From NCBI GenBank assembly GCA_001304315.1, contig LJUW01000036.1:1-39433 (forward strand): a stretch of 39,433 nt of DNA, given 5' to 3'. A program made the position numbers and the translations under genes. The stretch is from a candidate division Zixibacteria bacterium SM23_73_2 (GTDB taxonomy: Bacteria > Zixibacteria > MSB-5A5 > SM23-73-2). Shown in pieces: positions 12,461 through 20,771 of the stretch. Every line of letters starts with the position of its first letter. Positions within the stretch are counted from its first letter, which is position 1. Below the pieces are notes generated by a model that saw only the letters and a program-made list of their open reading frames with translations, was not told the origin of the DNA and ran no database searches.

Positions 12461-13228
12461 CTAATATCCCACTTGTGGAGGGGGACCACTTTTTAAAAGG
12501 TAGTTTGCCAAATAAATCACGTCAGATAAATTAATCAGGCAGTCTGCGTTCATATCTGCGTTGGTATAAGAACAGGGGAAATATCCAGGTTCAGACCCAG
12601 ATTTCAAAAGATACCTTGCAAGATGAATCACATCTGATAAGTTCACCGAATCGTCTAAGTTCGCATCACCAAGCAATACATCTGAAGATTCAATATGGAA
12701 AATTCCCTTTTCAAACTGGGGAGTAAAAGTAGAGCCTTCATCTGTATCCATACGAAGATCATAAAAAGTTCCAAGTACAATGCTAAGTGTATCTATCGTT
12801 ACTGTACCCGTATCCGTGGCAGTAAAGAACAAATTTACAGCTGGGCCTCGCCCTGGCTTTATCGTCTGGTCCACTAAGTAAGCTACAGCAGCGCACACTA
12901 ATATATTTTGGACATTATCAATAGTATCAAATTTAGCCTGCATTGGCTCAGCTCTAGTTCCTGTAAAACTTACAGAGTCCAGAAAAAGAGGTCCGGTCCA
13001 ATGAAAAGGGAAAGTAAATGCTGCTAAAACCTCATCATTTTCTATAATGGTAGAAATGACAACTTTGCCACTACACGACGAACTATCGATATAAGAACAT
13101 CTCTGTTCAAACAAGACCGAATCTAGACCATAAGGATCTAACGGATCCTGCTGAGCAAAGCTATTGCTAAGGAAGATAAATATAAACAGCAAATCCATTA
13201 AAAGAAACTTTGTTATTGTTTTGCTCAC
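12461..13228 (-). CDS. Secreted protein with C-terminal dockerin type I-like repeats
   Basis: Signal peptide FIFLSNSFAQQ; C-terminus GDANLDDSVNLSDVIHLARYLLKSG...ADMNADCLINLSDVIYLANYLLKSGPPPQVGY. Confidence 0.8.
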   Translation of the reverse strand: MSKTITKFLLMDLLFIFIFLSNSFAQQDPLDPYGLDSVLFEQRCSYIDSSSCSGKVVISTIIENDEVLAAFTFPFHWTGPLFLDSVSFTGTRAEPMQAKFDTIDNVQNILVCAAVAYLVDQTIKPGRGPAVNLFFTATDTGTVTIDTLSIVLGTFYDLRMDTDEGSTFTPQFEKGIFHIESSDVLLGDANLDDSVNLSDVIHLARYLLKSGSEPGYFPCSYTNADMNADCLINLSDVIYLANYLLKSGPPPQVGY

Positions 13229-14682: not shown

Positions 14683-15999
14683 TTAATAAAAATAACCATA
14701 AAAGCAGCCGTGCTTTGGAGGGGGTACTCCGGGTTTTAAAATGTAGTTAGCGAGATATATCGCATCCCCTATGCTGATCTGACAGTCGCAGTCAGGGTCC
14801 GCTCTCCAGACAGGCTGGGGGAGCTTCACCGGTTTGCCAAAGTAGAAGTTTGCCAGAAGGATAACGTCATCCAGTCCCAGATTCCAGTTTCCGTTCACAT
14901 CGCCATTGAGGTAATTGATCGCCAGGTTTTGCGGTCCATCCCCAACATAGTAGCTTTTCAAAATTTCACCGGAGGAGTCGATTTTGGTAACGTTATCAGT
15001 TTGAAAATTAGAGGTGTAAACCGTTGAGTCCTGAAAAGAGATTACCGAGACCACCCCGGTATCTCCGGGTAGTTCTAAAGGATTTGAAGACCCATGAAAA
15101 ACGCTGTCTCCTTTTACATCAAAGGTATAGACCTGGCCATCGGTTCCCCAGCCCCCGGCAGCAATATAACCCACTCCGTCAGGAGAAACAGAGATGATTC
15201 CAGGACTTCCCCCAATTTCAAAACTATCTATTTGCGCTCCTCTCTTTGTCCACAGGTTCGAGGATTTAGACTCCGAGTTTCTGCCAACCTCAACTACCTT
15301 CTTTACCACATCGTTTATGGGGTCTATTATATAGATTTTACCCCATTGGGACTGGTAATCCCCGGTGCAGACTACATAGAGTTCTCCCTGGCTATCTAAA
15401 TCCAGATACTGGGGATTGGTGCCTACGTTTATCACCTTAAGAACAGAATCTCCCTGGGTATCGAAAACAGCTACCGTGCCCTGTCCGTAAATCCCGGGAT
15501 AGGAGATGAAGCTGGTATTGCAAACGTAACCCTTGTTTAGGTTCTCCAGGATAAAAATCCCTGCGGGGTTTTCCCCGATGTAGAAGGAGTCGATTTTGGT
15601 TTTTGTACGCAGATCGATTTTAAACAGAGAATCCGCAGAAAAACAGGTGAGGTAGGCATATTTACCGCAATCTGAGAAATCCATAGCCCAGGGGTTACGA
15701 GCTAATCCTCCTCCGATATTAATGCTGTCTATCTTGGTATCGGTGTTGATGTTGTATATGTGGATATCCGCTGAGCCGGAGTTGACCACGTAGACCAGGC
15801 TGTCCCTGACCTTAACCTGGTTAGGAATGAACCCGGTGGTGGCGAAATTCCGGGTAATCTCATCGGTTTTTAAATTGATTTTAGACAGGGTGCATCCCAA
15901 ACCATTGATAACGTAAACTGTCGGATCTGCTCCCCAAATATTGGTGAATAGAATCTGTATAAGGATAAAAATAAAAAATGATTTTTTTATCATCTTCAA
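14683..15999 (-). CDS. Secreted YVTN/YncE-like beta-propeller protein with C-terminal dockerin-like repeats; candidate BtuG-like cobalamin-binding protein
   Basis: Signal peptide ending NIWG-ADPTVYVIN; repeats DPTVYVINGLGCTLSKINLKT, SLVYVVNSGSADIHIYNINTDTKI, GELYVVCTGDY...GKIYIIDPINDVV; C-terminal GDVNGNWNLGLDDVILLANFYFGK; about 47 bp downstream of the TonB receptor gene. Confidence 0.75.
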   Translation of the reverse strand: MKMIKKSFFIFILIQILFTNIWGADPTVYVINGLGCTLSKINLKTDEITRNFATTGFIPNQVKVRDSLVYVVNSGSADIHIYNINTDTKIDSINIGGGLARNPWAMDFSDCGKYAYLTCFSADSLFKIDLRTKTKIDSFYIGENPAGIFILENLNKGYVCNTSFISYPGIYGQGTVAVFDTQGDSVLKVINVGTNPQYLDLDSQGELYVVCTGDYQSQWGKIYIIDPINDVVKKVVEVGRNSESKSSNLWTKRGAQIDSFEIGGSPGIISVSPDGVGYIAAGGWGTDGQVYTFDVKGDSVFHGSSNPLELPGDTGVVSVISFQDSTVYTSNFQTDNVTKIDSSGEILKSYYVGDGPQNLAINYLNGDVNGNWNLGLDDVILLANFYFGKPVKLPQPVWRADPDCDCQISIGDAIYLANYILKPGVPPPKHGCFYGYFY

Positions 16000-16046
16000 A
16001 CTCCTTCAAATTAAAATATTTCTTTGACTCATAACACCTGAGATTT

Positions 16047-18299
16047 TTAATTTCTTAAATTGTAGACTATCTCCAGGTCCAATCCCCATTCCCTTCCGGG
16101 CATAGGGTATCTTTCGATCAGAAAATATTTCTCATTCGTTAAGTTTTTTATCTGTCCATTTAACATTACCTCCCATCTGTAGATTCTTTTTTTCAACCCG
16201 AAGCTTAAATCCACCAGATGGTAGGGATTCTCCTTTAAGGTGTTCGCTTCTGTTCTATATCTTTCGCTGACCCACCTATTTTTGCAGGAAAGCTGGAGGA
16301 GTTTATAATCAATTGAGATATTTAAGTCGGTGACATATCTGGGCTGAAAGGGGATGAGTTTACCATCATAGGTTTTGTCACCGCTTTTATTTATTGCTTG
16401 AGTTGCGTTGTTTCGATAATCTATCTTTGCTGCCTTGCCAAAAAATTCTAAACTCACAAAATCGTCGTGACCGGTCATCCGTGATCTGGAGATGTTTTGC
16501 GGCACGTATTTGCCGTCAAATCTCTTTCTCCAGATTATGATATCCTTAACCGAATTATGGAAATAGGTTGAGCCCAGGGAGAGTTTTGAATTTGAAAAAA
16601 GGGGAACTTTGAATTCAAATCCGATCTCCGAATGCTCTGATTTCTCCGGCTTCAGATCGGGATTGCCCGATGCGTAAACATCCTCTTTCCAGAATAAAGC
16701 GTTGTTAGAAGGCTGTCTGAAAGATTTTCCGTAGTTACCCCTCAGGATAATCTGGATTTTTTTACCCCTGGAAAGGGCAAGGCCCACCTTAGGGGAGGTG
16801 AAATCCTTTAGGTTTTTTGTGTTATCCTGACGAAGGTGAAAATTTAACCAAAGGCTTTCAAAGACAAAAAAGTCAGGTAAAGTTAGGTTTTGATCATCCG
16901 AGACGAAAAAGCTTTTGGTTTCTCTTTTTACCTCCCCGATGCTTCTTTGAGGAAATTTAAGGTCTTTGTGATCCAAAAGGTCCTTTTTGAATTCAGAGCC
17001 GATCCGGAGGTTGTTTTTTGGCAAAAAATTGAAATCCAAAAGAAGATGTAAATCGTAAATGTCGTTTACATACCTGGAATCATATCCGAAAAGGCTTAGC
17101 AGGTTAGAAGGAAGATTTAGGTTTTGGAAATGCTGCTGGAAACGGGAGAGTGCAAATTGCATTTGCGCAGACAATTTATTGGAGAAACTTCTTTTAAGCT
17201 TCAAATTCAAAAGCTTTCTTTTATCTTCTACTCTGGCACCGGAGGATATCTCCTCCTCAAATATAGCCCCGGGTATTCCGTTTTTCGATTGGTAGAGCTG
17301 TCCTGAAAAAGTCAAGTTGGTTTTGGGATTCAAGTTGTAAATCCCGGACAAGAAGAGATTTACCCCTTTTTTATAAGAGTTTTCTCTTTTGACTTTTCCT
17401 TGGTAGGGTTTTTCATATTCAAAATCGGATCTGGAATATTTGTATGAATAAGAGAAGTTGGTGGAAAGGTTTTCCAAAACAAAGGGATTTTTAAAAGAAA
17501 TACCAAAAACCTCTGTATTCCAGCTCCCCCACAAATTATCCATTTTCATTCTGGAGTCCTTGTCTATCCTCTGGGGTTGGGTTATTACGTTTATCGCTCC
17601 ACCCAGAGCATCGGCTCCGAATTTTGCTGAAGCACCGCTTTTATAGACCTCGATTCTTTCCACCATCTCCAGGGGGATGGTGGAAAGGTCTGCTACACCC
17701 GTGCCCGAGGGGTTGATCCTCTGGCCATCGATTAAAACCAGAACCTGCTTGGGGGAGGAGCCTCTTATCGAAACCTGATGTTTTCCACCGACGGTTCCGG
17801 TCTTCTGAATGAAGATCCCCTCAATCGACTCTAAAGCTTCAGCCACCGTTTTTGCTTTTAATTTTTCTATTTCACCTCTGGTTAAGATCTCTGCTTCAAA
17901 GGATGGTAAAGGTCTCTTTTCCGCGGTAACTTCTATTCCCGGAATGAAGTAAGTTTTTCTTTTTAGATTGATCCTTATTTTTCTGGTTATATCTTCTGAG
18001 GTCTCTATATCCGGGATAGTTTTTTTTTCGAATCCAGAAGCATCGATTTCCAGATTGTAGAGACCCACGGGGATATTGGCGAATAAGAAATTACCAGAAT
18101 TATCTGATTGGGTGAGGTAGTTGGTGTTTGCGATTTTAATTACAGCAAAACTTACAGGATTTCCATTGTCCTCCGACACAACTGTGCCGGAGATCTTTAT
18201 ATTGGATTGCGCAAAGGAGAGAGAGGAGATTGAAAGGTTAAGAAAAATAGAAATGAAAAGAATTCTCAGAATCTTTTTTAGCGAGTGTGAAAAGTACAT
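16047..18299 (-). CDS. btuB: TonB-dependent receptor, BtuB-like (cobalamin), with CarboxypepD_reg-like N-terminal domain
   Basis: Plug domain (ALESIEGIFIQKTG...VSIRGSSPKQVLVLIDGQRINPSG), C-terminal beta-barrel; preceded by a cobalamin riboswitch. Confidence 0.85.
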   Translation of the reverse strand: MYFSHSLKKILRILFISIFLNLSISSLSFAQSNIKISGTVVSEDNGNPVSFAVIKIANTNYLTQSDNSGNFLFANIPVGLYNLEIDASGFEKKTIPDIETSEDITRKIRINLKRKTYFIPGIEVTAEKRPLPSFEAEILTRGEIEKLKAKTVAEALESIEGIFIQKTGTVGGKHQVSIRGSSPKQVLVLIDGQRINPSGTGVADLSTIPLEMVERIEVYKSGASAKFGADALGGAINVITQPQRIDKDSRMKMDNLWGSWNTEVFGISFKNPFVLENLSTNFSYSYKYSRSDFEYEKPYQGKVKRENSYKKGVNLFLSGIYNLNPKTNLTFSGQLYQSKNGIPGAIFEEEISSGARVEDKRKLLNLKLKRSFSNKLSAQMQFALSRFQQHFQNLNLPSNLLSLFGYDSRYVNDIYDLHLLLDFNFLPKNNLRIGSEFKKDLLDHKDLKFPQRSIGEVKRETKSFFVSDDQNLTLPDFFVFESLWLNFHLRQDNTKNLKDFTSPKVGLALSRGKKIQIILRGNYGKSFRQPSNNALFWKEDVYASGNPDLKPEKSEHSEIGFEFKVPLFSNSKLSLGSTYFHNSVKDIIIWRKRFDGKYVPQNISRSRMTGHDDFVSLEFFGKAAKIDYRNNATQAINKSGDKTYDGKLIPFQPRYVTDLNISIDYKLLQLSCKNRWVSERYRTEANTLKENPYHLVDLSFGLKKRIYRWEVMLNGQIKNLTNEKYFLIERYPMPGREWGLDLEIVYNLRN

Positions 18300-18333
18300 T
18301 TAAATTTTTTCCTTGCCGGGGGAGAAAATAAAA

Positions 18334-18366
18334 AAACCAGCTTGCCGGGCTCAGCTGGTTTTATGG
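18334..18366 (-). terminator. Intrinsic terminator / riboswitch expression platform
   Basis: Minus strand: AACCAGCT-GAGCCCGGCA-AGCTGGTTTTTTTATT, between riboswitch and btuB start. Confidence 0.8.
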
Positions 18367-18409
18367 ATTAACCTTTTCCTCACCCGCGCAAGGACATATT
18401 AAGGTTTTC

Positions 18410-18590
18410 AAACCTGGCAGGTTTCCTGACTTGTGGCGTCAAACCTTGAGTCTTCCTTCCCATTCCGCCTATGGCGGGACAGTGGATTAACAGACCCTCG
18501 TAGCCACTCACAGTAGCGGGGCTGTGGCGGATTCTCACCGCCTTCCCTCTTAACCCCAAAGGGGACCAGATTCGGTATTTGTTTTCAAAG
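18410..18590 (-). ncRNA. Cobalamin (AdoCbl-type) riboswitch
   Basis: Minus strand: GGGAAGGCGGTGAGAATCCGCCACAGCCCCGCTACTGTGA...GGAAGACTCAAG...AAGTCAGGAAACCTGCC; B12-box and conserved core by eye. Confidence 0.95.
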
Positions 18591-18600
18591 AGCTTGTTTT

Positions 18601-18630
18601 ATATTAAATATAGAGAAAATATTTTGTCAA
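18601..18630 (-). promoter_or_regulatory. Promoter of riboswitch leader (TTGACA-N18-TAATAT)
   Basis: Minus-strand -35 at 18625-18630 and -10 at 18601-18606, just upstream of the riboswitch. Confidence 0.55.
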
Positions 18631-19596: not shown

Positions 19597-20388
19597 ATGC
19601 TCTCAGAAATCGCTGTGTGTCTTGAGATAGGTCCAAAAGGGGCTGGTGTTTTTGTTCCTGATTGTCCGGGTTGCTGGGTTTTCGCGAAAACGAAAAATAA
19701 AGCCTTGAAAAAAGCAAGGGTGGCTGTGGTTGAATGGTTTGAATGGATGAAAAAACACAAAGAGAGGGTGCCAGATCTTAAAGGTAAATTAAAAATTGAA
19801 GTGGCTGAGCTACTTTGGGTCAATTACAATCCAGTTGAGGCAGGCAAGCCCGAACCTTTGTTCTGGTCTGAGGTTTTACCTGTGAAAAAAGATGATATTA
19901 AAAAAACTCTTAAGTTAATGTATTACTCTCGTCAGGATTTGCTTGCACTTGTTTCTCCCTTAACCCAAGAACAGCTTGACTGGAACCCCCCGGGAGAACC
20001 CCGCAGCATAAGAAACTGCCTGAAACATATAGCTATTGTTGAACCCTGGTATATAAACCGCCTTAATATAAAACTACCAGAAGCTTATCCGAGAGATGTT
20101 TTTAAATTATTGAATCATACACGGGAAATCGTTTTGGATTGTTTGAATGACTTCCCCAGGGAAAAAATGAAGGGAGTTTTCATCCCCCAAAAATATAAAA
20201 GCCCGGTATGCGATCTATGGACCGCAAGAAAGGTTTTAAGGAGACTGGTTGATCACGAGAGACTACACACAAAATATATCCAGAAGGTGGTAAAAATGTA
20301 TAAAAAAGATAGGGGATTAAGATTATTCATTCACCTTTCAAGGAAACTCAAGGAGTGCCCATTCAACCTAAAGCTGGCAAGGATGTAA
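19597..20388 (+). CDS. HicB-like N-terminal domain plus DinB/YfiT-like helical domain
   Basis: N-term VCLEIGPKGAGVFVPDCPGCWVFAKTKNKALKKARVAVVEW (HicB-like); C-term MYYSRQDLLALVSPLTQEQLDWNPPGEPRSIRNCLKHIAIVEPWYINR...LRRLVDHERLHTKYIQ (DinB-like). Confidence 0.65.
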   Translation: MLSEIAVCLEIGPKGAGVFVPDCPGCWVFAKTKNKALKKARVAVVEWFEWMKKHKERVPDLKGKLKIEVAELLWVNYNPVEAGKPEPLFWSEVLPVKKDDIKKTLKLMYYSRQDLLALVSPLTQEQLDWNPPGEPRSIRNCLKHIAIVEPWYINRLNIKLPEAYPRDVFKLLNHTREIVLDCLNDFPREKMKGVFIPQKYKSPVCDLWTARKVLRRLVDHERLHTKYIQKVVKMYKKDRGLRLFIHLSRKLKECPFNLKLARM

Positions 20389-20771
20389 AAGGAACTGTTG
20401 AGGTTTTTCCTCAGTATGCCCAGGGTCTATCAGATCTTGAGGGTTTTTCCCATATCGTTTTGATTTATCATTTTCATCTGTCCAGAGGATTCTCCCTGGA
20501 GGTTAAACCTTATCTGGATGAGAAATTACGCGGGGTTTTTGCAACCAGAGCACCATCCCGCCCCAATCCCGTTGGAATCTCGGTGGTCCGTCTTCTAAAA
20601 CGGGAAAAAGAGAAACTTTTTATTCAAAACATTGACATCGTGGATGGTACTCCTCTTCTGGACATAAAACCTTATGTTCCGGAATTTGATAAGCCTGAGA
20701 AAATCAAAATCGGATGGCTGGAGAAAAAAGTAAAGAATCAGGCCAAAGATGACGGAAGGTTTATCAAATAA
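20355..20771 (+). CDS. TrmO/TsaA-like tRNA methyltransferase family protein; N-terminus uncertain
   Basis: GVPIQPKAGKDVKGTVEVFPQYAQGLSDLEGFSHIVLIYHFHLS, FATRAPSRPNPVGISVVRLL, DGTPLLDIKPYVPEFD. In-frame upstream GIKIIHSPFKETQ (20313-20351) looks like the family N-terminus. Confidence 0.85.
   Translation: MPIQPKAGKDVKGTVEVFPQYAQGLSDLEGFSHIVLIYHFHLSRGFSLEVKPYLDEKLRGVFATRAPSRPNPVGISVVRLLKREKEKLFIQNIDIVDGTPLLDIKPYVPEFDKPEKIKIGWLEKKVKNQAKDDGRFIK

Follow-up and report, generated by a model that had tools for sequence, protein, structure and literature searches.

The closest described systems are the BtuG1, BtuG2 and BtuG3 proteins of Bacteroides thetaiotaomicron, seven-bladed and strongly acidic propellers whose genes adjoin btuB and are controlled by a cobalamin riboswitch (PMC6143338, PMC10404256). 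In the literature BtuG has been called exclusive to Bacteroidetes (PMC6143338, PMC10404256, PMC12751083). The locus described here belongs to another phylum. It lies in a stretch of 39,433 nucleotides (hereafter the window; contig LJUW01000036.1 of assembly GCA_001304315.1) from the candidate division Zixibacteria bacterium SM23_73_2, a metagenome-assembled genome (MAG) of 2.26 Mb that is 86% complete. On the minus strand of the window, all the parts proposed in an initial annotation made from the sequence were found in the proposed order, i.e., from 5' to 3', a promoter, a cobalamin riboswitch, a terminator, a gene for a TonB-dependent receptor and a gene for a secreted propeller. We consider, with a probability of roughly three in four, that this locus is a B12 (corrinoid) uptake operon, in which a BtuB-type importer is paired with a BtuG-type extracellular capture propeller held via its C-terminus. 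The propeller is a BtuG-like partner and not BtuG proper, because it lacks lipidation, a defining feature of BtuG, and because it is found outside the phylum stated for BtuG.

The propeller gene runs from an ATG at position 15993 to position 14683 and its open reading frame encodes 436 residues, with a signal peptide (15931..15993) and a seven-bladed BtuG-like YVTN propeller domain (14920..15930) that is supported by AlphaFold, Foldseek and hhalign. The AlphaFold model shows seven blades, with a predicted local distance difference test (pLDDT) score of 91.2 and a predicted template modelling score of 0.90. When the model was compared with the PDB using Foldseek, 16 of the 17 best matches were BtuG chains, several of them with bound B12, and the template modelling (TM) scores, taken here and below by target length, were mostly 0.74-0.80; E. 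coli YncE came after BtuG, with 0.67-0.70. The BtuG reference used for the sequence comparisons was taken from a circular Bacteroides record, and this protein fits the residue numbering of the published BtuG2 structure. A family profile built from 58 homologues of the window propeller matched Bacteroides BtuG at 98.5% in hhalign, in a global alignment that stayed in register over the whole length, and a BtuG-like protein from Persicobacter, whose gene also follows that of a TonB receptor, at 97.8%. In contrast, the match to YncE was 62.5% and out of register, and the match to Pgl was only 0.2%. YncE and the generic YVTN propellers are members of the same repeat family, and YncE is also encoded beside a TonB receptor gene, pqqU; nevertheless, the comparison that was proposed initially as a possible refutation, i.e., whether the propeller is structurally nearer to YncE than to BtuG, came out in favour of BtuG, and both fold and profile disfavour a generic YncE identity.

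In BtuG2 the ligand is contacted by a loop formed by Asn54-Thr64 and by Tyr239 (PMC10404256). Asn54, Thr64 and Tyr239 align with Asn9, Thr14 and Tyr192 of the mature window propeller, in which the first pocket loop is shorter than in BtuG. Among the homologues Asn9 is invariant (58/58), Thr14 is present in 56 of 58 with Ser in the other two, and the position of Tyr192 is occupied by Tyr or Phe in all 58. The strongly conserved positions of the family fall mostly in the loops that precede strand A or follow strand B of a blade, on what would be the face where BtuG binds its ligand; this is counted as mild support only, since such conservation is partly common to YVTN propellers. The mean net charge of the propellers is -22, and that of BtuG -18. 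By analogy with BtuG, the propeller is predicted to bind B12.

The gene upstream (16047..18299) encodes a TonB-dependent receptor of 750 residues, in which domain searches revealed an N-terminal CarboxypepD_reg domain (18194-17952) and a plug (17891-17595) followed by the barrel. Its best PDB sequence match is the Bacteroides BtuB 8bmx_C, and the best NCBIfam model is that of the B12 receptor family, TIGR01779. When the AlphaFold model of the receptor (pLDDT 87.6) was compared with the PDB in Foldseek, BtuB structures took the first 16 places, with Bacteroides BtuB1 and BtuB3 leading; PqqU and the siderophore and haem receptors ranked only below the BtuB structures, and the TM scores were mostly 0.82-0.86 for BtuB versus 0.76-0.77 for PqqU. 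The identification of the gene as btuB-like was therefore borne out, BtuB being the closest solved structure, and the receptor is predicted from these models to be a BtuB-type B12 importer. It shares with the BtuB of E. coli and with BtuB1-3 of Bacteroides the plug, the 22-strand-type barrel and the riboswitch; it differs from them in the additional CarboxypepD domain. A receptor 70% identical to it, also with a riboswitch in front, is present in a Candidatus Zixiibacteriota MAG. The distance between the receptor stop codon and the ATG of the propeller gene is 53 bp; the adjoining secreted propeller had been correctly recognised, and the gap of about 47 bp given for it holds only if a TTG two codons upstream is taken as the start.

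The arrangement is widespread in the phylum. Homologues of the propeller were detected in 72 of 133 Zixibacteria genomes, and 60 of their neighbourhoods were retrieved. In each of the 58 contigs with upstream sequence the propeller gene is immediately preceded, on the same strand, by a receptor gene, and a cobalamin riboswitch is found beyond the receptor in all 48 contigs that reach that far, so that the synteny check suggested at the outset came out positive. The absence of a riboswitch in the remaining 12 loci is not counter-evidence, because all 12 stop at a contig end. Receptor relationships were examined in a tree of 90 receptors, obtained by a quick search and with 22 weak branches. In this tree the propeller-linked receptors of Zixibacteria form one clade, with 99% support in the SH-like approximate likelihood ratio test (SH-aLRT), distinct from the propeller-less receptors that sister genomes have behind the same riboswitch. 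Since 56 of the 58 rows of this clade are linked to a propeller, receptor type and propeller travel together, as expected of partners. One of the two exceptions has a run of N at the expected site of the propeller; the other is real: at locus L161 a receptor of the propeller-linked clade is not followed by a propeller gene, and this natural loss could serve for comparison. The CarboxypepD domain follows the same division, being present in 50 of 56 propeller-linked Zixibacteria receptors and in only 2 of 32 propeller-less ones, both of which lie inside the propeller-linked clade. At 33 riboswitch loci from genomes with no recognised propeller the aptamer also precedes a TonB receptor, mostly shorter and lacking CarboxypepD. 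In loci L143-L173, L177 and L178, which lack a propeller, the one riboswitch of each genome precedes TonB receptors that differ between Zixibacteria and are only distantly related, as if the receptor had been swapped behind a retained riboswitch. A match in Deferribacteres (L033) was set aside as a different TonB receptor, with neither riboswitch nor propeller.

The probable need for such a locus can be read from the gene content of the phylum. CbiC is required whichever of the two known routes to the corrin ring is used. It was not detected in any of 130 Zixibacteria genomes, and the identical search found it in seven control genomes; because of this, the lineage appears to be unable to build the corrin ring, and it is probable that the lineage, and indeed the phylum, relies on corrinoids taken up from outside. 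The host genome encodes B12-binding domains. A cobalamin riboswitch occurs in 113 of the 130 genomes, nearly always exactly one per genome, and that of the window is the only one found in the host.

This riboswitch (18399..18585) is a full-length match to the covariance model RF00174, with 119.2 bits (E 1.6e-29) against a gathering score of 31.5, and it shows no unusual feature; the check by covariance model that had been recommended thus located it at 18585-18399 on the minus strand. The promoter upstream was only partly as described. The -35 element TTGACA at 18630 is exact, but in the 70-nucleotide window considered the -10 element TTTAAT with a 16-nucleotide spacer (11 of 12 consensus matches; 18603..18630) scores better than the overlapping TAATAT with 18 nucleotides (10 of 12) that had been put forward. 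The locus L064, from the same genus, has TTGACA-16-TATAGT at the same distance, and sigma-70-like matches of at least 10/12 are found upstream of 14 of 48 aptamers, when 0.8 are expected from shuffled sequences. Downstream of the aptamer, the intrinsic terminator was found at 18362-18321 as AAAACCAGCT-N10-AGCTGGTTTT followed by a T run, and it is likely the expression platform; a near-identical hairpin lies at the same place in L064. It was detected by a scan that allows longer loops, given that a simple consensus scan, with a loop limit of 8, missed it because its loop has 10 nucleotides. Terminator-like hairpins follow 18 of the 48 related aptamers within 330 nucleotides (17 of them within about 100), versus 1.9 in shuffled sequences; the related loci where no such hairpin is seen may be controlled at translation. 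Between the aptamer and the terminator, RNA folding with growing 3' ends predicts a hairpin (UCCUUGC-GCGG-GUGAGGA, 18377..18394) whose role can only be suggested: in transcripts whose 3' end lies within the terminator, its CUUGCGCGGG segment can alternatively pair with CCCGGCAAG in the terminator loop. According to this folding model, the B12-bound aptamer would hold the first hairpin and the terminator would form, and when B12 is scarce the CUUGCGCGGG/CCCGGCAAG pairing would block the terminator.

The propeller departs from BtuG in its anchoring. A lipobox, which the window propeller lacks, is absent from all 59 members of the family that were inspected, and it is present in both BtuG controls, so that the lack of a lipobox, as originally read, is general. 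The dockerin-like repeats noted in the tail were also substantiated: the C-terminal segment (14719..14910) has two F-hand loops, and the solved dockerins 2y3n_B and 4uyp_B match residues 361-420 with E values of 0.001-0.003, though the protein has no match to Pfam Dockerin_1. Among the 59 homologues, with dockerin tails counted by a family hidden Markov model, 46 end in a dockerin-like pair, 11 in a type IX type A sorting domain and two in a C-terminal membrane anchor, i.e., a hydrophobic segment with a basic end. The tail types differ by lineage and appear from the sequences to be interchangeable on the same propeller. Accordingly, the proposal of a BtuG analogue in a new architecture stands as to fold, profile similarity, synteny and regulation; however, the architecture is phylum-wide and not a single new arrangement. 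What is new relative to the BtuBG systems of Bacteroides is the phylum, the absence of a lipid anchor and the three interchangeable C-termini.

The dockerin tail is not a special feature of the propeller gene, because about 60 sites of the host genome match related tails. Two further dockerin-tailed proteins are encoded in the window itself (12461-13228 and 34246-35601), the latter with a weak thioredoxin-like match. SprA, a type IX translocon protein, is encoded in 128 of 130 genomes, including the host; 118 of 130 encode cohesin domains, for which the host genome has five matching places. Three neighbouring host genes (L190:355-7886) combine cohesin domains with type IX sorting tails, and one of them also has a dockerin. 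With SprA and type IX-tailed cohesin proteins both encoded in the host, docking at the surface is plausible, and the propeller would lie outside the outer membrane with its dockerin tail docked to these cohesin proteins. As in the cellulosome, each tail has two F-hand loops and cohesins are encoded in the same genome; unlike in cellulosomes, no glycoside hydrolase context was seen, the cohesin carriers have type IX tails, and the pairing is putative. Literature searches on dockerins and on type IX secretion in Zixibacteria gave no result. A broader proposal, in which B12 is captured on a dockerin-cohesin scaffold fixed by the type IX system and one module has been re-anchored in three ways independently of lipidation, is tentative, and we regard it as possible rather than probable. 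The membrane-anchored tails of L112 and L122 gave no match to the NCBIfam models of C-terminal sorting signals; exosortase-like genes are present in their taxonomic order, and the contig with the membrane-anchored propeller of L112 (G107:C437) has one such gene at a distance of about 9 kb (C437:10963-11379). One cohesin match (G105:C11:15601-15777) falls within an open frame 24,197 codons long, possibly encoding a giant surface protein.

Taken as an uptake operon, the locus would work as follows. When cellular B12 is low, the riboswitch would let transcription pass the terminator and both genes would be expressed. The first product would be placed in the outer membrane as a BtuB-type TonB-dependent importer; the second would reside outside the cell beside it, where a corrinoid would be caught in the central pocket and handed to BtuB. 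The C-terminus would keep the propeller near the surface, where the dockerin-like pair could dock onto cohesin proteins displayed by the type IX system, a type IX sorting domain or a membrane anchor taking its place in sister lineages. The physical complex with BtuB, the lid function and the surface location are predicted by analogy with BtuG. Several observations weigh against this interpretation. The lowest E value for the propeller belongs to a generic archaeal YVTN propeller of the surface layer, 1l0q, which heads both the Foldseek and the profile lists, although its TM score (0.67) is below that of BtuG. The BtuG2 contacts Trp194 and Trp272 have no Trp at the aligned places of the family. 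The receptor, with 144 bits, does not reach the curated cut-off of TIGR01779 (599.7). A dockerin-tailed protein would also need a route across the outer membrane. Finally, the receptor tree does not support common descent of the Zixibacteria and Bacteroidota pairs; it places Bacteroidota BtuB outside the propeller-linked clade, separately from the Zixibacteria receptors, in a position that is not reliable. The pairs may share an origin or may have arisen twice from YVTN propellers.

Four other explanations were weighed. The propeller could bind B12 as a released or scaffold-bound scavenger, similar to a haemophore and fixed by cohesins away from the receptor, instead of acting as a lid on BtuB. 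The lack of a lipid anchor in 59 members, the interchange of tails and the type IX-tailed cohesin proteins of the host would agree with this, as would the B12 binders of Bacteroides that associate only transiently with BtuBG (PMC10404256); however, the propellers are linked almost strictly one to one with a single receptor clade, which points to a specific complex, and BtuG, the nearest relative, is a lid, so that we judge a scavenger unlikely. A generic secreted protein of the YVTN/dockerin kind, co-transcribed with btuB by chance and with no role in B12 capture, is an improbable reading of the propeller: the YVTN family is large, dockerin tails are common in these genomes and the best PDB sequence match is the archaeal propeller, but in 58 of 58 loci, spread over some 17 family-level groups, the gene accompanies the receptor, and it does not occur next to the other types of receptor that this riboswitch precedes; moreover, both the fold of the propeller and the alignment of its profile over the full length are nearer to BtuG than to YncE. 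A periplasmic propeller that relays B12 from BtuB to an inner-membrane transporter would fit the plain type I signal peptide, which alone predicts only export to the periplasm; nevertheless, type IX sorting domains, a mark of outer-membrane crossing, occur in 11 of 59 homologues encoded at the corresponding genomic position, and BtuG is extracellular, which makes this option quite improbable. The import of another ligand, such as pyrroloquinoline quinone or haem, after the example of the adjoining E. coli pqqU and yncE genes and of the PqqU and haem receptors lower in the Foldseek list, is hardly credible in view of the cobalamin riboswitch in 48 of 48 loci, the rank of BtuB above PqqU, the out-of-register YncE alignment and a host genome with no other riboswitch-controlled candidate for a B12 receptor.

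If the BtuB-type importer and the BtuG-like propeller are indeed a functional pair across this uncultured phylum, propeller-assisted capture of B12 would be older or more widespread than thought, and a lipid anchor would not be essential for it. Anchors have been exchanged naturally within the family, so that the function of the anchor could be studied by comparison, and the dependence on corrinoids that is probable for the phylum would be tied to one riboswitch-controlled locus per genome.

Two further observations were made in the course of this analysis. A BtuG identical over 203 residues is present on two circular records assigned to different species, NZ_OY725920.1 (L132; 73 kb, Bacteroides finegoldii), where the B12 uptake locus is complete, and OY726018.1 (35 kb, Phocaeicola massiliensis); this could indicate a mobile B12 locus. 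Elsewhere in the window, at 19597-20388 and 20355-20771, a HicB-like antitoxin domain is fused to a DinB-family domain and overlaps a TrmO tRNA methyltransferase gene.

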